From: a virus
Length of the DNA stretch: 34,372 nucleotides
Strand: one strand, 5' to 3'
Virus record (IMG/VR): IMGVR_UViG_3300032297_000153
Location: 1-34,372 of that record
Within the stretch, counting starts at the first letter, position 1. Each line of letters begins with the position of its first letter. The position numbers and the translations under genes are program-made. The notes beneath the pieces are model-generated. The model made no database searches. It saw only the letters and a list, made by a program, of their open reading frames with translations, and was not told where the DNA came from. This document shows positions 20,446 through 26,575 of the stretch, one piece after another.

Positions 20446-20615
20446 TGATGACTCGCAAAGACTATGTAGCCGTTGCAGAAATTCTTTCATCGTATAAAGA
20501 TTTGATAGGTGATGAATTTACTTTTGAAGATTTGGTGGAAGATTTCTCTGGAATGTTTGCAGAGGATAATCCAAATTTCAAACACGAAATATTTAGAGAG
20601 GCGTGCATGAAATGA
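20445..20615 (+). CDS. 56-aa hypothetical protein
   Basis: MMTRKDYVAVAEILSSYKDL then FEDLVEDFSGMFAEDNPNFKHEIFREACMK. Three helices are predicted. The MTRKDYVAVAEIL start with a NPNF-x-x-x-x-F end resembles small phage proteins present in many actinophages, of unknown function. It overlaps the next gene by 4 nt. Confidence 0.65.
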   Translation: MMTRKDYVAVAEILSSYKDLIGDEFTFEDLVEDFSGMFAEDNPNFKHEIFREACMK

Positions 20616-20677
20616 CCACAGCAATAATTATTTTTGCAATTTGTTTTATTGCAGTGTTAATGTTCGCTGGCTCGTAA
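20612..20677 (+). CDS. 21-aa membrane peptide
   Basis: MTTAIIIFAICFIAVLMFAG plus S: almost entirely one hydrophobic helix. ATGA overlap with the preceding stop. Another 21-aa membrane peptide of the same plan is at 23008. Could be a toxin-like or regulatory micropeptide, or not made at all. Confidence 0.45.
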   Translation: MTTAIIIFAICFIAVLMFAGS

Positions 20678-20689
20678 TTCAAAAGATCC

Positions 20690-20721
20690 TAAGCATGATC
20701 TAAAACTGCTTAAATTTTTTT
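20690..20721 (+). terminator. operon-end hairpin with U-tract (copy 1, compensated variant)
   Basis: TAAGCA/TGCTTA stem with an 11-nt loop containing CTAAAAC, then AATTTTTTT. The second pair is A-T here but G-C in the other copies, a compensated change. Confidence 0.7.
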
Positions 20722-20730
20722 CGAACCGAG

Positions 20731-20760
20731 TTATCCACAGGCTGCATTAAGTTATCCACA
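20731..20760 (+). promoter_or_regulatory. pair of perfect DnaA boxes
   Basis: TTATCCACA at 20731-20739 and 20752-20760, same strand, 21 bp apart, the same spacing as the pair at 18150. Confidence 0.7.
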
Positions 20761-20770
20761 GCCCTTTACG

Positions 20771-20786
20771 TGTGAGATTTATCACA
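20771..20786. promoter_or_regulatory. perfect Crp/GlxR-like palindrome
   Basis: TGTGA-gattta-TCACA, followed after 5 nt by AATGTCCG (20792-20799). Confidence 0.7.
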
Positions 20787-20823
20787 CTCCAAATGTCCGA
20801 TTTACCCCTTTACGGATTATCTT

Positions 20824-20846
20824 TTGTCTCCCCAGTATGATAGGAT
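20824..20846 (+). promoter_or_regulatory. phage-type promoter TTGTCT-N11-TAGGAT
   Basis: TTGTCT, 11 nt, TAGGAT with TGA before the -10. The weakest -10 of the set, but the spacing is exact. Confidence 0.5.
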
Positions 20847-20876
20847 ATTTATATCAACTCAGAAAGAAGGCTCACC

Positions 20877-21026
20877 ATGACCGCATATACCTGCATACAA
20901 TGTAATGAAAACTCAGTAGACATTACTGCACTTTATTGCTTCCGTTGCTACCTTGACCGAGAGGTAGAAGCGATGATAGAGTATGACTATATAAACCAAC
21001 TATTCCTAACGAAAGAGGCTAACTAA
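20877..21026 (+). CDS. 49-aa zinc-ribbon-like protein, first gene of operon 3
   Basis: MTAYTCIQCNENSVDITALY-CFRC, then an acidic helical tail (YLDREVEAMIEYDYINQLFLTKEAN). Two CxxC pairs 13 residues apart. AGAAAGAAGG lies upstream. It heads six close-packed genes. Function unknown. Confidence 0.65.
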   Translation: MTAYTCIQCNENSVDITALYCFRCYLDREVEAMIEYDYINQLFLTKEAN

Positions 21027-21027
21027 T

Positions 21028-21138
21028 ATGGATTTCTATGACGACTACTACGAGACAGATATGCTACGCCCAGACGCTAAGGCTTGCTATTGCAAACTTC
21101 ACTCAATTTGTACCAACTGCATGAAAGGATATAACTAA
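21028..21138 (+). CDS. 36-aa Cys-rich peptide
   Basis: MDFYDDYYETDMLRPDAKAC, then YCKLHSICTNCMKGYN. C20, C22, H25, C28 and C31 give a compact metal-binding tail after an acidic, Tyr-rich start. It overlaps the next ATG (TAATG) and starts 1 nt after the previous stop. Confidence 0.6.
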   Translation: MDFYDDYYETDMLRPDAKACYCKLHSICTNCMKGYN

Positions 21139-21347
21139 TGGAATATAACTACTCACTAACAGTTTCCTATGACGGAGAACTTGTATCAACAACACGAAGC
21201 GCAGATATGCTAGAAATAGTAACTGCGTGGAATAAGTGTGTAGACTTTGGCGACGCTAAAGAATACGCAACCTATAACTTGTCCGACCCTATTGGCAAGA
21301 TGTATACTAAGACATTCTATCGCAACGGAAAGGTAAGTGTAAAATAA
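21138..21347 (+). CDS. 69-aa conserved actinophage-type hypothetical protein
   Basis: MEYNYSLTVSYDGELVSTTR, SADMLEIVTAWNKCVDFGDA, KEYATYNLSDPIGKMYTKTF and a final strand RNGKVSVK. The layout of strand, helix and strand, with a G-D-AKE-A-Y centre, is one I associate with actinophage early proteins. No biochemical role known. Confidence 0.65.
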   Translation: MEYNYSLTVSYDGELVSTTRSADMLEIVTAWNKCVDFGDAKEYATYNLSDPIGKMYTKTFYRNGKVSVK

Positions 21348-21348
21348 T

Positions 21349-21633
21349 ATGGGTTCAGTAACAGCACTAGGACTTCAAGATACCGTACTTGATTTAGAAA
21401 CTCAGATTCTTTATCACCTCAAGGGTAATCACTATCCACCAGTACCCGCAGAAATGGTAGCCCCATGCATAGAGGCGATTGACGCTTACTATGACGAGGA
21501 CTATGACCGCATGATTGATATGCCTATGGTAGGGGATTTTCAGATTCTTTATCGTGGAGATACTCAAGCACCTGCAAGAGCGATTGTAGACCAACACCAC
21601 TTGCAATTTTGGCTACCTGATTGGGAGGACTAA
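21349..21633 (+). CDS. 94-aa acidic hypothetical protein
   Basis: MGSVTALGLQDTVLDLETQI, then HYPPVPAEMVAPCIEAIDAYY, DEDYDRMIDMPMVGDFQILYR and a final HHLQFWLPDWED. Acidic throughout. No ribosome binding site; probably coupled to the upstream gene 1 nt away. Overlaps the following start (TAATG). Unknown. Confidence 0.65.
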   Translation: MGSVTALGLQDTVLDLETQILYHLKGNHYPPVPAEMVAPCIEAIDAYYDEDYDRMIDMPMVGDFQILYRGDTQAPARAIVDQHHLQFWLPDWED

Positions 21634-21779
21634 TGAGTACTGATAATTGGACAGTGTGGGTAGGTGGTGGGGAATATACTTCCCACTACCTAACAATGAA
21701 CCAGGCAAGCGACCTTGTTGAACACCTAAAGTGGGATTTAGACTATGACGATGTATTTATGGAGTGCGTAAATGGCTGA
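21633..21779 (+). CDS. 48-aa hypothetical protein
   Basis: MSTDNWTVWVGGGEYTSHYL, then LTMNQASDLVEHLKWDLDYDDVFMECVNG. The form V-V-GGGE---HYLT--QA--LV--L---GYDDV is widely seen in actinophage early regions, unknown in function. Stop overlaps the next gene by 8 nt. Confidence 0.65.
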   Translation: MSTDNWTVWVGGGEYTSHYLTMNQASDLVEHLKWDLDYDDVFMECVNG

Positions 21780-22017
21780 TACAATAACACGTATGGAACT
21801 AGTATATGCAGATCTACTTACACCTGGCCAGTTAATGGAAGGTGACTTAATCAATATTGATATGGATATTGTAGAAGTGTTATCCGTTGTAGATGATGCA
21901 ACAGGTGATAACTATGTAATCACTCATCGTAATGAATATGGTGAGGAAGACGAGTACTCATGCACTTATGAGGAAATGTTTAAACTGTATGTGTTCATAG
22001 ATAGAGATGAGGAATAG
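21772..22017 (+). CDS. 81-aa acidic hypothetical protein
   Basis: MADTITRMELVYADLLTPGQ, then LMEGDLINIDMDIVEVLSVVDD and YVITHRNEYGEEDEYSCTYEEMFKLYVFIDRDEE. An SH3-like beta barrel is a reasonable guess (L-PGDLI---G-V--V--V). Last gene of operon 3, followed after 0 nt by a strong terminator. Confidence 0.65.
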   Translation: MADTITRMELVYADLLTPGQLMEGDLINIDMDIVEVLSVVDDATGDNYVITHRNEYGEEDEYSCTYEEMFKLYVFIDRDEE

Positions 22018-22042
22018 TCTTGGGCTTCCCCCCAAGATTTTT
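22018..22042 (+). terminator. intrinsic terminator of operon 3
   Basis: TCTTGGG/CCCAAGA stem with a 6-nt loop, then TTTTT, running into CGAACCG. It replaces the TGAGCA-type hairpin found at other operon ends. Confidence 0.85.
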
Positions 22043-22095
22043 CGAACCGCTGTCCTAAATGTCCGTTTTACGTAGAACCTCCTGATTCCCTGGAT

Positions 22096-22124
22096 TTGAT
22101 ATTTTTTAGATTTTTTGGTATGAT
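22096..22124 (+). promoter_or_regulatory. promoter TTGATA-17-TATGAT
   Basis: Spacer of 17 nt with TTAGATTTTTTG, nearly identical to the promoter at 23133-23161. AATGTCCG lies at 22058-22065. The -10 ends 6 nt before ATG 22131: leaderless. Confidence 0.7.
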
Positions 22125-22130
22125 TAAGGT

Positions 22131-22283
22131 ATGAAAAAAACATCTGAGGAATTACGGAGACTTATGGAGTTGCGCCGTAGCAACGCTGCCTCAGCCGTGC
22201 CTAATAAAAAGAAATACGACAGAAAAAAATGTCAGAGCCAAATGCTACAATTAAGAAAAGAAAGAGGGTCAATACATGACTAA
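22131..22283 (+). CDS. 50-aa very basic peptide
   Basis: MKKTSEELRRLMELRRSNAA, then PNKKKYDRKKCQSQMLQLRKERG and a final SIHD. Arg/Lys content suggests nucleic-acid binding. Leaderless start 6 nt after the -10 box. Overlaps the Gp88 gene by 8 nt, so both are made from one message. Confidence 0.6.
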   Translation: MKKTSEELRRLMELRRSNAASAVPNKKKYDRKKCQSQMLQLRKERGSIHD

Positions 22284-22998
22284 ACTACTACGCTCAAAAG
22301 ATAGAAAGGTTGCTAATGCCGTCACACCTAACGGAAAACAAGCAAGTATCGCTAACACATTCGGACTACCTGCAGGAAAAAACTATTCATGTCCTGGCGC
22401 TACGAGTGTCTGCGAGAGTGTTTGCTACGCTGGCAAATTGGAAAAAGTATTCCCAACAGTAAAGAAAAACTTATTGCATAACTGGGAATTGCTACGCAAT
22501 GCAGACACAGACACAATGATCAAATTGCTAGAAGAAATGATTGGCGATTTTATTGTTGATTGTGATAAGCGCAATGCACCAAAGTTATTCCGCATTCACT
22601 GGGACGGAGATTTCTTCAATGATACATATGCCTACGCATGGAAAACAGTAATCACTAATCATGCAGACATTCAATTCTGGGTTTACACTAGAGTAAAGTC
22701 CGCCGCCCTAATCCTAAAGGATATAGATAATCTATCTTTATATTATTCCACAGATAGCGAGAACAAGGCTATCGGTATCGGTCTAAAGACAGAGCATGGT
22801 ATCTCCCTTGCATACCTTGCTAAAAACTTTGCACTAGGACAGTCAGACATGAAAGAATTGACTTCACGCCCTGGGGCTAAATGCCCTGAGAATAAAAAGT
22901 CTATTCCTCTTATCTCTCAGAAAGGCTCAGCCTGCGCCTCATGCAAGTTGTGTATTTATGAGAAATCTGATATAGTGTTTAGTGCAACCAAAAAATGA
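22276..22998 (+). CDS. Gp88-family protein (240 aa)
   Basis: Matches the family known as gene product 88 of mycobacteriophages: SxxNTFGLPA-GKNYSCPGAT with C39, C46 and C50 (CPGATSVCESVCYAGK), a FRIHWDGDFF motif (residues 105-114), then FWVYTRV (134-140). A C-terminal cysteine group at C203, C220, C223 and C226 is suited to a metal or Fe-S site. The HWDGDFF and FWVYTR segments resemble TIM-barrel strands, so a radical-SAM-like ancestry has some appeal, but no CxxxCxxC motif is present. Biochemical role unknown. Cotranscribed with the basic peptide before it and a tiny membrane peptide after it. Confidence 0.8.
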   Translation: MTKLLRSKDRKVANAVTPNGKQASIANTFGLPAGKNYSCPGATSVCESVCYAGKLEKVFPTVKKNLLHNWELLRNADTDTMIKLLEEMIGDFIVDCDKRNAPKLFRIHWDGDFFNDTYAYAWKTVITNHADIQFWVYTRVKSAALILKDIDNLSLYYSTDSENKAIGIGLKTEHGISLAYLAKNFALGQSDMKELTSRPGAKCPENKKSIPLISQKGSACASCKLCIYEKSDIVFSATKK

Positions 22999-23007
22999 GG
23001 GGTCTAA

Positions 23008-23073
23008 ATGGAAATGCTAACAGTAATAGCCCTAATACTGATTATCCTAGCGATAGCAGGGTCGGGACACTAG
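23008..23073 (+). CDS. 21-aa membrane peptide
   Basis: MEMLTVIALILIILAIAGSG plus H: one hydrophobic helix. GAGGGG lies 7 nt upstream, a real ribosome binding site. Same length and plan as the peptide at 20612. Short, but the site and its place at an operon end support expression. Confidence 0.5.
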   Translation: MEMLTVIALILIILAIAGSGH

Positions 23074-23076
23074 GCG

Positions 23077-23092
23077 TGTGACCTATCTCACA
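23077..23092. promoter_or_regulatory. perfect Crp/GlxR-like palindrome
   Basis: TGTGA-cctatc-TCACA, 40 bp before the promoter at 23133. Confidence 0.7.
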
Positions 23093-23132
23093 CAGAAATC
23101 GTCTCAAATAGTGAGAAATCTAGGGAAATGAT

Positions 23133-23161
23133 TTGATATTTCTTAGATTTTTTGCTAAACT
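23133..23161 (+). promoter_or_regulatory. promoter TTGATA-17-TAAACT
   Basis: The 17-nt spacer holds TTAGATTTTTTG as in the promoter at 22096. Gene start 23199, with an AGAAAAGAGA leader. Confidence 0.65.
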
Positions 23162-23198
23162 TAGATATAAGCAAGTAACTAACAGAAAAGAGAAAAAA

Positions 23199-23363
23199 AT
23201 GGCAGTAACAACAGCAACTTACAAGGTCGGCGACACTTACACTTCACAGAAGTCAAAGGTAACTGGCACAATTCAGGAAATCAAGCCACTCGCAAATGGT
23301 AATGTCCGTGTAAAGTTAGATGTAGAGGGTAACACTCGCTACACTACTTGGACTTCTAAGTAA
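23199..23363 (+). CDS. 54-aa beta-rich small protein
   Basis: MAVTTATYKVGDTYTSQKSK, then VTGTIQEIKPLANGNVRVKL and DVEGNTRYTTWTSK. An SH3/KOW-like barrel pattern (VGD-Y-S-K---TG-I-EI-P---G--RV-L). An open frame to 23133 covers the promoter and is rejected. Single-gene unit ending in a hairpin. Such folds can bind nucleic acid; unproven here. Confidence 0.7.
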   Translation: MAVTTATYKVGDTYTSQKSKVTGTIQEIKPLANGNVRVKLDVEGNTRYTTWTSK

Positions 23364-23369
23364 GTCCAA

Positions 23370-23390
23370 AGTCGCCAATGTACAGCGACT
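23370..23390 (+). repeat. hairpin after the 54-aa gene
   Basis: AGTCGC/GCGACT stem, 9-nt loop, followed by ATAAATAAG. Possible weak terminator or processing site. Confidence 0.5.
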
Positions 23391-23414
23391 ATAAATAAGT
23401 GGCAGGAACTATCC

Positions 23415-23437
23415 TGAGCAAGATACTAAAAGGCTCA
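23415..23437 (+). repeat. TGAGCA-type hairpin (copy 2)
   Basis: TGAGC/GCTCA stem with a 13-nt loop containing ACTAAAA, preceded by CC and followed by CTAAAT. No T-run. Between two single genes. Confidence 0.6.
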
Positions 23438-23483
23438 CTAAATCCCCCTAACAAATCAACCACCAAAGAAAAGAGATAAACAC

Positions 23484-23909
23484 ATGGCAACAAGAGGAAA
23501 AGCAATTAGCGTAAAAATCGCAACAGCCAAAGTAATCACAGCACTAGAAGGCGCACTCGCTAAACTAGAGTCAGACTACGCATCACAAGCAACTAATGAA
23601 GCAAAGTATCAGAAGGCTTATGAGAAGTGGAAAAAGCAAATGCAGGACTATGCTATCGCCAACATCAAGAAAGCAGAAAACTTCCGCACTAACTATCGTT
23701 CATGGAATAACAACCTGAACATTGACTTTGACCTAACAGTTACAGAGTCAGAGTTGCCAGTATCACCTGAGCGTGATTTTGAGCAGATGCACTCGCACCA
23801 GTATAAGGAACAGAAAGATGAATTGTCTAATGCAATTCGTATTCTAAAGATGACCGACGAGGAAGTTGTAAATACTTCTACATATAATGCGGTGGCTCGC
23901 TACCTATAA
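23484..23909 (+). CDS. 141-aa coiled-coil-like hypothetical protein
   Basis: MATRGKAISVKIATAKVITA, then a long helical part (ALEGALAKLESDYASQATNEAKYQKAYEKWKKQMQD) and a central FRTNYRSWNNNLNIDFDLTVTESELPVSPERDF segment. A C-terminal helix (HQYKEQKDELSNAIRILKMTDEEVVNTSTY) closes the chain. Proteins with this plan are common in actinophages, of unknown role. AAGAAAAGAGA leader. No strong promoter of its own was found; read-through from 23133 is possible. Confidence 0.7.
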   Translation: MATRGKAISVKIATAKVITALEGALAKLESDYASQATNEAKYQKAYEKWKKQMQDYAIANIKKAENFRTNYRSWNNNLNIDFDLTVTESELPVSPERDFEQMHSHQYKEQKDELSNAIRILKMTDEEVVNTSTYNAVARYL

Positions 23910-23932
23910 TTCCCACTACGGGAAATAACTCC

Positions 23933-23955
23933 TGAGCATGAGTCTAAACTGCTCA
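23933..23955 (+). repeat. TGAGCA-type hairpin (copy 3)
   Basis: TGAGCA/TGCTCA stem, 11-nt loop with TCTAAAC, followed by CACTAAG. A separate intrinsic terminator follows at 24043. Confidence 0.65.
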
Positions 23956-24042
23956 CACTAAGTTTGATTGGGCAGATGCGGATCCCGCTGCTGAAAAGAG
24001 TTGAAAGGTGCACAATAAAAACTCGTTCCCAATCATTTTTTA

Positions 24043-24065
24043 TTTTGCTGCGTGCAAAAATTTTT
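24043..24065 (+). terminator. intrinsic terminator
   Basis: TTTTGC/GCAAAA stem with a 5-nt loop, then ATTTTT and CGAACCG. Confidence 0.7.
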
Positions 24066-24072
24066 CGAACCG

Positions 24073-24088
24073 TGTGATTTTTCTCACA
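24073..24088. promoter_or_regulatory. perfect Crp/GlxR-like palindrome
   Basis: TGTGA-tttttc-TCACA, 8 nt after the terminator T-run. Confidence 0.7.
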
Positions 24089-24134
24089 TCCTTTACGTCT
24101 CATTATTTAAGATTATGGCCCTTACGATTGGCAT

Positions 24135-24157
24135 TTGTCAGACCCAACTGCTAGACT
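24135..24157 (+). promoter_or_regulatory. phage-type promoter TTGTCA-N11-TAGACT
   Basis: TTGTCA, 11 nt (GACC at its start), TAGACT with TGC before it. Closely resembles 18253 and 19664. Confidence 0.6.
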
Positions 24158-24193
24158 TATATTAATATCAGAACAGAAAGAAGGAAGCCCCCA

Positions 24194-24691
24194 ATGGGAT
24201 TAGATATGTATCTCAGCGCTAAGAAGCACCTAGAAAAAATCAACTGGAAAGCCTTGCAGAATGATAATGAATTATCTTATTCATCTCCTGAAGCAGTCTA
24301 TCCAAAATTCAATGACCTAATGGAATTGACACAACTATCCGATGTTGCAACAGATATCTATGGAGCAGAAGTATCTGTAACCTGTGCATACTGGCGCAAG
24401 GCTAATCAGATACACGCTTGGTTCGTAAGAGAAGTCCAAGGTGGCGAGGATAACTGTGGCGACTACTATGTATCACAAGATAAACTAATAGAGTTGCTAG
24501 CACTATGCAAGCACGCATTAGAAACTAAAGACCCTAGCCTATTTCCACCGCAAGCAGGATTTTTCTTTGGTGGAACAGACATTGACGAATGGTACTGGAA
24601 TGATCTAAAGAATACTATCAGTCAGTTAGAGCGTATCTTTGCTCTAGCCGAAGTTGATAAGTTATCATTCTATTACTCATCATCTTGGTAG
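24194..24691 (+). CDS. conserved phage protein MGLDMYL-type (165 aa)
   Basis: Starts MGLDMYLSAKKHLEK, a signature start of a widespread phage and bacterial family of unknown function. The family features follow: EVSVTCAYWRKANQIHAWFV (residues 61-80), CGDYYVSQDKLIELLALC, then FPPQAGFFFGGTDIDEWYWNDLKNTISQLERI and a closing FYYSSSW. W/H/D/Y conservation in AYWRKANQIHAWF and GG-DIDEWYW suggests an active or binding site. AAGAAGGAAG upstream. Single-gene unit with its own promoter and terminator. Confidence 0.75.
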   Translation: MGLDMYLSAKKHLEKINWKALQNDNELSYSSPEAVYPKFNDLMELTQLSDVATDIYGAEVSVTCAYWRKANQIHAWFVREVQGGEDNCGDYYVSQDKLIELLALCKHALETKDPSLFPPQAGFFFGGTDIDEWYWNDLKNTISQLERIFALAEVDKLSFYYSSSW

Positions 24692-24721
24692 TTGACAAAT
24701 GTCAGTCGCCAGTAGTACAAT
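24692..24721 (+). promoter_or_regulatory. composite promoter with TTGACA and ATGTCA-N11-TACAAT
   Basis: TTGACA (24692-24697) is 18 nt from TACAAT (24716-24721); ATGTCA (24699-24704) is exactly 11 nt from the same -10. Only 26 nt separate it from the end of the preceding gene. Confidence 0.6.
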
Positions 24722-24757
24722 TGAAGATATAAACAAACTAACAGAAAGAGGCCCCCA

Positions 24758-25165
24758 ATGGAGTCAGTAGTAAATGCAACAAATGAATTTCTAAACACAC
24801 AGATTGCGGCTCTACAGCAATCACTAAAAAGTAAAGATGAACACATTCAACGTGTCACTCAACGTGACTATGCACAGGCTGCAGAGATTAATCGTGTCAA
24901 CGAAGCAATGCAGACATGGACACTGAATGAGTTAGAGAATAACGGAATCACAGAAGACCAAGCAAATGAAATTGCAGAGATTTGTGGCTTTGAACTCACC
25001 AAGGAAGTTGAGGTCGAGGTTACCGTAACTTATAACTTAACTTTAACAGTGCCACACGATGAAGACGTTGAGTCAATTGTTAACGATATTGATTTTGAAT
25101 CAGTGTCTTATAACTCTGACAATATTACTTGGCTAAGCGCCAGTGTAGACAGGGTGGATTTTTAG
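24758..25165 (+). CDS. 135-aa helical plus beta hypothetical protein
   Basis: The N-terminal half is a probable coiled coil (NTQIAALQQSLKSKDEHIQRV, AEINRVNEAMQTWTLNELEN). Then comes TEDQANEIAEICGFELTKE and a beta domain (VEVEVTVTYNLTLTVPHDED, SVSYNSDNITWLSASVDRVDF). The V-V-VTY-LT-TVP-D-D pattern resembles a small alpha/beta fold seen in the 78-aa gene at 27785. AGAAAGAGG upstream. Unknown function. Confidence 0.65.
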   Translation: MESVVNATNEFLNTQIAALQQSLKSKDEHIQRVTQRDYAQAAEINRVNEAMQTWTLNELENNGITEDQANEIAEICGFELTKEVEVEVTVTYNLTLTVPHDEDVESIVNDIDFESVSYNSDNITWLSASVDRVDF

Positions 25166-25217
25166 TAGGGGGCTACTAAAGTGGCCTGCCAAATGCCTTA
25201 AAACTGGGTAAGGGACC

Positions 25218-25252
25218 TGAGCAAGTCCACGTAAACTGCTCACTAAATTTTT
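25218..25252 (+). terminator. TGAGCA-type hairpin with U-tract (copy 4)
   Basis: TGAGCA/TGCTCA stem with a 13-nt loop ending GTAAAC, then CTAAATTTTT and CGATCCG. Confidence 0.7.
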
Positions 25253-25261
25253 CGATCCGCC

Positions 25262-25281
25262 TGTGGATAACTTGTGGATAA
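25262..25281 (-). promoter_or_regulatory. pair of perfect DnaA boxes
   Basis: TGTGGATAA at 25262-25270 and 25273-25281, i.e. TTATCCACA on the minus strand, 11 bp apart. Confidence 0.7.
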
Positions 25282-25304
25282 CTTACGACACGCCCATACG
25301 ATCA

Positions 25305-25320
25305 TGTGAATTTAATCACA
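25305..25320. promoter_or_regulatory. perfect Crp/GlxR-like palindrome
   Basis: TGTGA-atttaa-TCACA; AATGTCCG follows at 25327-25334. Confidence 0.75.
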
Positions 25321-25367
25321 TTAAGGAATGTCCGATTTGCCCCATCTTTACGTATCCTGATTTGCAT

Positions 25368-25390
25368 TTGTCGGTGGCTCCGTGTATACT
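25368..25390 (+). promoter_or_regulatory. phage-type promoter TTGTCG-N11-TATACT
   Basis: TTGTCG, 11 nt, TATACT. Start site predicted near 25398, leader of about 23 nt with AGAAAAGAGA. Confidence 0.65.
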
Positions 25391-25420
25391 TAAATTAACA
25401 ACAACAGAAAAGAGAAACTC

Positions 25421-26443
25421 ATGGCACATGACCTAGAAACACAAAACGGAAAAACATCTTTTGCGTCTTTCCGTGAACCTGCATGGCATGGATTGGGTAC
25501 CGTATTCACAGAGGAAAAGACAACTCTAGAAATGCTGGAAGCAGCAAATCTAAATGGTTGGAATGTCCGTCTTGAGGATATGCCAATTCCATCACACTTA
25601 ACAAGCGACAAGGAATACCAATATGTCGTGCGTACAAATCCTACCGATAACACCCAGACCGATGTTCTTGGCGTAGTTGGTGAGCGTTACCATGTTTTAC
25701 AGAATGAGGATTTATTCTCATTTGGTGATAACATTCTAGACGGTGGCGGTCGTTGGGAAACCGCTGGCTCTATCAAGGGTGGGCGTGTAGTATTCGGCGC
25801 TCTTGCTCTTGAGCGTGAGACAATTCTAGACCCTAACGGCGTTGCAGATAAGGTAAAGACTTATCTCCTCATCAACACATCACACGATGGCTCTATCGCT
25901 ATTCAAGCAAGCATAACACCCGTTCGTGTTGTGTGCGCTAATACTCTTAACCTTGCTCTTGGTGGCGTTGGTCGCAAGAACAAGAAGGGTATCAAGCAAT
26001 CATTCAAGATACGCCACACACAAACTGCAAATGGTAAAGTGCAGATTGCTCGTGAGACTCTTGGTCTTGCTAATGCATACATGGACGAATTTGATATCAT
26101 GGCTAAGGCGATGATTGAGAAGGAAGTCTCTGCTCTTGATTTCAACAAAATCATTCTCGCTGCATATCCTAAGCCAGAAAAAGACGCTAAGGGTAGCAAC
26201 AAGAAGTGGGAAAATAAAGTTGATGTTATCAACGATATTTACACTGGTGAATTCAATGGCATGATTGCTGGTAATGCGTGGGGTGCTTTCAATGCACTCA
26301 CCGAACGCCTTGATTGGTACCGTTCTGCTCGTGGTGGCTCTAATGAGTCAATCCTTGCAAGCGCAAGCGGATTTGACCCTGCTATCAACGCAGAAAAAAA
26401 TCGCTTACTAAAAGTTGTGCAGAATGTAATGTCTCTCGCATAA
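25421..26443 (+). CDS. DUF932 / TIGR03299-family phage-plasmid protein (340 aa)
   Basis: Starts MAHDLETQNGKTSFASFREP with WHGLGT at residues 24-29, the family hallmark. It continues with YVVRTNPTDNTQTDVLGVVGERYHVLQNED, GGRWETAGSIKGGRVVFGALAL, TYLLINTSHDGSIAIQASITPVRVVCANTLNLAL and a C-terminal NDIYTGEFNGMIAGNAWGAFNALTERLDWYR. The length equals the family norm. Such proteins are common in actinophages and plasmids, perhaps linked to DNA metabolism, but the function is not established. Single gene, with its own regulatory cassette upstream and hairpin downstream. Confidence 0.85.
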   Translation: MAHDLETQNGKTSFASFREPAWHGLGTVFTEEKTTLEMLEAANLNGWNVRLEDMPIPSHLTSDKEYQYVVRTNPTDNTQTDVLGVVGERYHVLQNEDLFSFGDNILDGGGRWETAGSIKGGRVVFGALALERETILDPNGVADKVKTYLLINTSHDGSIAIQASITPVRVVCANTLNLALGGVGRKNKKGIKQSFKIRHTQTANGKVQIARETLGLANAYMDEFDIMAKAMIEKEVSALDFNKIILAAYPKPEKDAKGSNKKWENKVDVINDIYTGEFNGMIAGNAWGAFNALTERLDWYRSARGGSNESILASASGFDPAINAEKNRLLKVVQNVMSLA

Positions 26444-26453
26444 TAAATTTTCC

Positions 26454-26476
26454 TGAGCATGAAATAAAACTGCTCT
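26454..26476 (+). repeat. TGAGCA-type hairpin (copy 5)
   Basis: GAGCA/TGCTC stem (outer pair lost), 11-nt loop with AAATAAAAC. It lies between the DUF932 stop and the tRNA. Confidence 0.6.
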
Positions 26477-26484
26477 CCATAATT

Positions 26485-26558
26485 GGAGCGTTAGCATAGT
26501 TGGTTAATGCGCTACCCTGTCACGGTAGAGATCACGGGTTCAAGTCCCGTACGCTTCG
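26485..26558 (+). tRNA. tRNA-Asp (anticodon GUC)
   Basis: Full cloverleaf: acceptor GGAGCGT/ACGCTTC (one G-U), D stem GCAT/ATGC, anticodon stem CTACC/GGTAG with loop CTGTCAC (anticodon GTC), T stem ACGGG/CCCGT with loop TTCAAGT, 5-nt variable loop AGATC. Discriminator G. CCA is not encoded. It sits directly after a hairpin and is followed by AAGATTTTTCG, so it is probably cotranscribed with the DUF932 gene and cut out. Confidence 0.92.
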
Positions 26559-26575
26559 CAAGATTTTTCGAATCG

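Follow-up and report, generated by a model that had tools for sequence, protein, structure and literature searches.

A short RNA pseudoknot recurring behind phage genes, with a possible role in protecting the 3′ end of the upstream message

Introduction

Positive retroregulators and 3′ stabilizers of the REP type are established concepts. Such structures, among them the Bacillus thuringiensis cry terminator and the intercistronic REP stem-loops, lie 3′ of a coding sequence and are linked to the gene upstream of them. Here, we analyze an RNA element with the same placement and the same link, present in five copies in the virus record IMGVR_UViG_3300032297_000153 of IMG/VR (34,372 bases, analyzed whole and hereafter called the window). 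The element is an H-type pseudoknot, formed by two stems (S1 and S2) and three loops (L1, L2, and L3). As with positive retroregulators, a run of Us behind it (U-tract) is optional, and a plain stem-loop substitutes for it behind homologous genes of the DUF932 family. Unlike them, it has an obligatory S1 and fixed loop sequences, and it is not a simple GC-rich hairpin.

A second likeness is found in plant RNA viruses. The coremin or xrRNA_C elements, compact folds with a short stem and a GUUAAAC spacer, have been proposed to act as exonuclease roadblocks (PMC10520033). Our pseudoknot shares with these exonuclease-resistant RNAs (xrRNAs) the short stem, an A-rich spacer of the form ...UUAAAC, and the compactness. 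But coremin has two hairpins, the first one with a YGAD loop, and works against the eukaryotic Xrn1 from the 5′ side, whereas in the pseudoknot the first stem has a loop that pairs with the 3′ strand. As there is no hairpin with a YGAD loop followed by a spacer and a separate second hairpin, we do not assign the pseudoknot to coremin.

Other phage-borne RNAs differ more. The abiF RNA (RF03085) and the ToxI antitoxin RNAs are likewise compact and about 35 nucleotides (nt) long; unlike them, the pseudoknot has no covariance-model match and no adjoining toxin gene, and there is usually one copy per 3′ end. An assignment to abiF or to the type III antitoxins was rejected on the lack of a family match and on context, since there is no repeat array by a toxin gene. 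The DUF2800 RNA (RF02960) is also a cis RNA of phages and mobile elements, but it is a family of its own, 158 nt long, whose start follows the end of the pseudoknot. We observe it immediately 3′ of the pseudoknot in one locus (L336, positions 2496–2684), where it starts exactly at the pseudoknot end; in the clostridial contigs L250, L279, and L309, sequence similar to that after the L336 pseudoknot follows theirs.

The Rfam 15 covariance models reported only the tRNA and the neighboring DUF2800 RNA and no match to the pseudoknot, a negative that is not absolute because short pseudoknots are poorly modeled. Having no Rfam match, a known riboswitch, ribozyme, or other Rfam class was set aside. 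Nor did we find a description of the pseudoknot in the literature with an open license; an earlier listing without a name is possible elsewhere.

Covariation supports two helices

The element is about 28–34 nt long, and its structure is near certain. The order of its parts is S1, L1 (CC), S2, L2 (HG), the 3′ strand S1′, an A-rich L3 ending in AAAC, and S2′. S1 has 3–5 variable base pairs, formed between the bases 5′ of the invariant CC and the loop bases right after (A/T/C)G, while S2 has 5–6 base pairs with consensus UGAGCA/UGCUCA. All five copies in the window fit this plan, copy 2 with AAAA for AAAC. The first-pass annotation of the window had described simple hairpins whose loop is conserved. 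That description does not hold, as the loop contributes the 3′ strand to a second helix and also contains the A-rich third loop of a pseudoknot. The overlooked helix is found in every copy, as AGAT/ATCT, TAT/ATA, ACT/AGT, GGA/TCC, and TTT/AAA in copies 1 to 5.

What is the evidence for S1? A scan of viral contigs for CCTGAGCA-N(5-10)-AAACTGCTCA, a pattern with nothing in it that selects for S1 pairing, produced at least 120 stretches, and in the matches listed the loop, from its third position on, mirrors the bases immediately 5′ of CC. Among these listed matches there are 116 unique instances, and 81 of them have at least three Watson-Crick S1 pairs at the exact offset (shuffled mean 5.6); at all other offsets, pairing is at background. 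In a set of 70 distinct 34-nt copies, the inner two S1 pairs are Watson-Crick in 70/70, using four and three pair types, and the outer two are looser. In the same set, four of the six S2 pairs show changes on both sides, and sliding the partners by 1–3 columns lowers the fraction of paired cells from 92% to 27–37%.

Because S2 pairing had been a requirement for the 70-copy set, S2 was evaluated separately by leaving it free. In 80 DUF932 loci, 118 of 125 unique matches have at least 5/6 S2 pairs, whereas the reversed-sequence control yields six matches, none of which reaches that number. The orientation is strict, with 118 on the gene strand versus 0 on the opposite strand. Compensated S2 variants include TAAGCA/TGCTTA, TAGACA/TGTCTA, TGATCA/TGATCA, TTAGCA/TGCTAA, TGAACA/TGTTCA, and TGGATA/TATCCA. 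Thus, a DNA-level role is ruled out by strand orientation, and a chance origin by Markov and reversed controls that yield almost none. The first of these variants is the compensated change in copy 1 from which a paired RNA had been proposed at first pass, and covariation in relatives bears that proposal out; a lack of covarying copies elsewhere had been named as its refutation, and there are hundreds of them.

Five copies in the window

The five copies are all on the + strand, at the places first annotated, with the 5′ arms of S2 beginning at 20690, 23415, 23933, 25218, and 26454. Scanning the window for TGAGCAN7AAACTGCTCA with at most three mismatches finds four copies versus 0.56 expected (maximum of 2 in 100 shuffles); copy 4 is missed by this pattern due to its longer loop. 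In a relaxed structural scan, the top five scores on the + strand are exactly these copies (16.5 to 13.0), and 13.5 is the best score from the − strand and the reversed control. Copy 2, the most degenerate one, is by itself at the level of background, with copies 1, 3, 4, and 5 clearly above it, and we accept it despite its score because of the sequence match.

Copy 1 (20684–20712) has S1 at 20684–20687/20698–20701, the CC of L1 at 20688–20689, and S2 (TAAGCA/TGCTTA) at 20690–20695/20707–20712, with TG as L2 and AAAAC as L3. It lies about 6 nt past the TAA of a 21-residue open reading frame (ORF; 20612–20677) and runs into a U-tract. Copy 2 (23410–23437) is inside an operon and without a U-tract, with a stop codon 46 nt upstream and a hairpin (23370–23390) in front; its S2 is TGAGCA/GGCTCA (5/6 pairs) and its L3 is CTAAAA. 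In copies 3 and 4, S2 is TGAGCA/TGCTCA. Copy 3 (23928–23955; L3 CTAAAC) lies 18 nt past the stop of a 141-residue gene (23484–23909) with a small hairpin intervening, and copy 4 (25213–25242; L3 ACGTAAAC) lies 47 nt past a stop codon, with a U-tract at 25248–25252. Copy 5 (26449–26476) has S2 TGAGCA/TGCTCT (5/6 pairs) and L3 TAAAAC. It is 5 nt downstream of the stop codon (26441–26443) of a DUF932 gene (PF06067; 25421–26443, + strand), the upstream gene for which the tie to the pseudoknot has been best tested, and 8 nt upstream of the 5′ end, the expected RNase P site, of a tRNA-Asp(GTC) (26485–26559, + strand). The host of this virus may be actinobacterial, given that the DUF932 protein is about 53% identical to those of Streptomyces phages.

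Several details of the first-pass annotation agree with this description. The distance between the S2 arms is 11 nt in copies 1, 3, and 5, 13 nt in copy 4, and in copy 2 either 11 nt with an A-G mismatch topping the stem or 13 nt with the mismatch opened; U-tracts are confined to copies 1 and 4. Two other details hold in part. The matched six-base arms are found in copies 1, 3, and 4, but in copy 5 the outermost bases do not pair. A position after stop codons is right for copies 1 and 5, at 5–7 nt, but copies 3, 2, and 4 are at 18, 46, and 47 nt, with other structures in between.

The pseudoknot belongs to the upstream gene

Grouping the proteins that flank the pseudoknot results in 49 upstream and 84 downstream clusters. 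The upstream cluster predicts the downstream one poorly while the downstream cluster predicts the upstream one well, with conditional entropies H(downstream|upstream) of 1.39 bits versus H(upstream|downstream) of 0.38 bits, where the downstream gene calls are crude. The pseudoknot belongs to the upstream gene, and Hsp20 and DUF932 are recurrent there.

As an example, among close DUF932 relatives the pseudoknot is behind the gene in 80/80, and a tRNA-Asp is called next in 79 of them, the last contig ending within the tRNA. Distant marine DUF932 loci, which share the Pfam domain with 27% identity across a short stretch, have the pseudoknot in 40/40 usable cases, 7–10 nt past the stop; there, no tRNA is found and several different sequences follow. 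One of these loci (L372) has two pseudoknots in tandem. Phages of Streptomyces, Rhodococcus, Mycobacterium, and Arthrobacter have an ordinary GC-rich stem-loop behind DUF932, with or without a U-tract, and behind the DUF932 of the crAss-like phage cr271_1 we see no obvious stem-loop.

The distance from stop codon to S1 in viral loci climbs sharply at 5 nt. S1 starts 5–6 nt past the stop in 20 of the 49 upstream gene families, and 4–12 nt past it in 32. A distance of 7 nt, which would bring the S2 TGA into frame, is rare, with 6 cases versus 25 at 6 nt and 15 at 8 nt (viral loci L002–L201). Within 12 nt past the pseudoknot, 72 of 240 copies have a U-tract, in comparison with 5–17 of 240 at other offsets, and S1 is retained in both classes. 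Thirty-seven elements have a tRNA within 400 nt, and in 34 of these its 5′ end is 2–13 nt past S2. A hairpin with an immediate U-tract, as in an intrinsic terminator, does not describe the family, and in the window it holds just for copies 1 and 4.

Bins that belong to different phyla (L220, L221, L229, L319, L324, L252) also contain an ORF of about 20–25 residues with a conserved tail of the type RPxAHCxxGC, whose stop is inside or just ahead of the pseudoknot. It may encode a peptide precursor.

Distribution

Relatives of the pseudoknot occur in more than 100 viral contigs, in some plasmids (Ligilactobacillus and others), and in contigs of bacteria and metagenome-assembled genomes, Saccharibacteria among them. 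Many matches in the scan of these last contigs are due to chance, having other loop lengths or no S1. Named phages with the pseudoknot include Staphylococcus Phietavirus and Rockefellervirus, Lactobacillus KC5a and phiEF-1.1, and Bacillus Page. Cyanobacterial phages that have it include Synechococcus S-EIVl and S-H35, Nostoc NMeng1, and Microcystis Mwe-JY13. Others are the deep-sea thermophilic phage D6E, Moorella MTATph1, Mycobacterium Labelle, Arthrobacter Amigo and Molivia, Paracoccus ParMal1, the crAss-like phage cr7_1, and a set of nearly identical Vibrio phages. In an Amigo-type Arthrobacter phage, the pseudoknot is flanked by ssb and a tRNA-Gly. A match in Aeromonas phiA050 was discarded for lacking S1.

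Proposed function and alternatives

We propose that the pseudoknot is a compact 3′-end protector of the upstream gene, most likely working like a positive retroregulator or a REP-type 3′ stabilizer, and also a terminator where a U-tract follows. The upstream coding region is the candidate beneficiary because it is what the U-tract, tRNA, and intercistronic contexts share. A 3′ end would be exposed close behind the pseudoknot, either by intrinsic termination, by an RNase P cut (suggested by the tRNA), or by decay of the downstream cistron. An arriving 3′–5′ exonuclease would then halt at S2, braced by S1 and L3, sparing the coding region ahead and stabilizing the mRNA. With S1 5–10 nt behind the stop, almost no bare RNA would be left between the last ribosome and the block. 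In the approximately 30% of copies with an immediate U-tract, the same fold probably doubles as the terminator hairpin. The plain stem-loop behind the actinophage DUF932 genes, as a functional replacement, speaks for this reading too, and so do the tandem copies, in L372 and probably in front of copy 4.

Several observations weigh against a 3′-end protector. Copies with neither a U-tract nor a tRNA show no visible site at which a 3′ end would form. In some bacterial contigs a stop codon is inside the pseudoknot, and a terminating ribosome must melt the fold. A search with a single query found no match in 5,426 complete E. coli genomes, although 3′–5′ decay operates there too. And several Firmicutes phages place the pseudoknot between the portal/head genes and those for scaffold and major capsid protein, a setting in which it would be more sensible to protect the message that follows. 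Mainly because such capsid-operon contexts better fit a downstream role, our confidence in 3′-end protection is moderate, about evenly balanced between yes and no. The portal/capsid placement is seen in the unrelated Firmicutes phages L202, L203, L209, L328, L330, and L335, some of them with an extra small hairpin downstream.

Those contexts are what a roadblock to 5′–3′ exoribonucleases would explain: a phage xrRNA acting against RNase J to protect the RNA downstream, such as capsid mRNA or tRNAs. In Firmicutes phages that are unrelated to each other, the pseudoknot directly precedes the genes for scaffold and major capsid protein, and it also stands ahead of tRNAs; its fold is compact, with the coremin likeness noted above; the majority of hosts belong to Gram-positive, cyanobacterial, or alphaproteobacterial groups, which are known for RNase J; and the null result in E. 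coli would fit as well. Of 20 host bins, 11 score above the cut-off for RNase J, a count that tips the balance neither way. We nevertheless think a roadblock unlikely, as around 30% of copies go straight into a U-tract with little left downstream to protect, the pseudoknot stays with the upstream gene across differing downstream sequences, and a copy is present in Vibrio phages. Convincing copies also occur in bins without an RNase J match (Polynucleobacter and two Flavobacteriales bins), and a strict dependence on RNase J was rejected on that ground, although bins may contain misassigned phage contigs. Could the element be primarily an intrinsic terminator or attenuator, in which the pseudoknotting of the hairpin is incidental? 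The enrichment of U-tracts immediately behind S2 is strong, and ordinary terminators stand in the same place behind some DUF932 genes. But 70% of the copies have no U-tract, in agreement with the earlier remark that termination alone is insufficient, many precede a tRNA or a cistron that needs transcription, S1 is there regardless of the U-tract, and an S2 of 5–6 base pairs closing a loop of about 11 nt makes a weak terminator. We find this explanation quite improbable.

Known stimulators of frameshifting and readthrough have a spacing like the 5–9 nt that separate the pseudoknot from the stop codon. By abutting a ribosome with the stop in its A site, the pseudoknot might then alter termination, recoding, or reinitiation, and the many families at 5–6 nt would agree with that. 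What speaks against such a translational element, which we consider very improbable, is that frames are mixed, that in-frame extensions often run for no more than a few codons, that TAA is used as stop most often (32 of 48 families), and that many copies precede a tRNA or a U-tract and serve no downstream cistron. The extension stops before the pseudoknot end in 21 of 48 families; in the other 27 some member passes it, mostly with short extensions, and a readthrough or frameshift stimulator was rejected. We are just as doubtful that the pseudoknot is bound by a conserved protein, or that it is a decoy or antitoxin RNA of the ToxI or AbiF kind. Phages do carry antitoxin RNAs (PMC12373285), and the constancy of S2, L1, L2, and AAAC next to a variable S1, with several copies per genome, would suit a binding partner. 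Yet neither abiF nor another Rfam family matches, the copies are fixed to the 3′ ends of unrelated genes instead of forming arrays by a toxin gene, and the host range is too diverse for a single partner encoded by the phage. Protein binding, small-RNA binding, and RNA processing had been suggested from the window alone; processing or binding is worth considering, but a single protein or small-RNA binder is less likely because S1 varies freely and the hosts and upstream genes are unrelated.

A broader reading can be offered only tentatively. In DNA phages and in mobile elements, the pseudoknot could be a dedicated exonuclease-resistant fold and thereby the bacterial counterpart of the viral xrRNAs. 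Its geometry and not mere stability would stop exoribonucleases, and it would have been put to use repeatedly, behind key phage genes and sometimes ahead of them, across many bacterial phyla. A pseudoknot of about 30 nt and near-fixed sequence behind unrelated genes in phages of Bacillota, Actinomycetota, cyanobacteria, and others, absent from Rfam, is apparently a common part of gene regulation to which no name has been given. If its role is to protect the 3′ ends of mRNAs, it would show a way for phages to adjust gene dosage inside operons in which GC-rich hairpins are not used, it would provide a short portable stabilizer for laboratory constructs, and the existence of true bacterial exonuclease-resistant folds would become testable.

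Neighboring structures and motifs

Upstream of copy 4 several structures are stacked. The first one is a perfect hairpin, TTTAGTAG-GGGG-CTACTAAA (25161–25180, + strand), which overlaps the stop codon at 25163–25165 and is kept in relatives. Directly 5′ of copy 4 is a probable second pseudoknot in tandem with it, of diverged sequence (25182–25210, + strand), with S1 at 25182–25184/25196–25198, a 4-base-pair S2 (TGCC/GGTA, 25187–25190/25207–25210), and a 5-nt L2 with ATG. In 11 relatives, 97.4% of its cells are paired and two pairs are changed on both sides.

Two sequence motifs recur in the window. The DnaA-box consensus TTATCCACA has seven perfect occurrences versus 0.47 expected (20731, 20752, 25262, 25273, 18150, 31013, and 31025), four of them right behind a pseudoknot with its U-tract. 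A motif resembling TTTTTCGAACCG recurs right behind 3′ structures, at 20717, 22038, 24061, 25248, and 26564.

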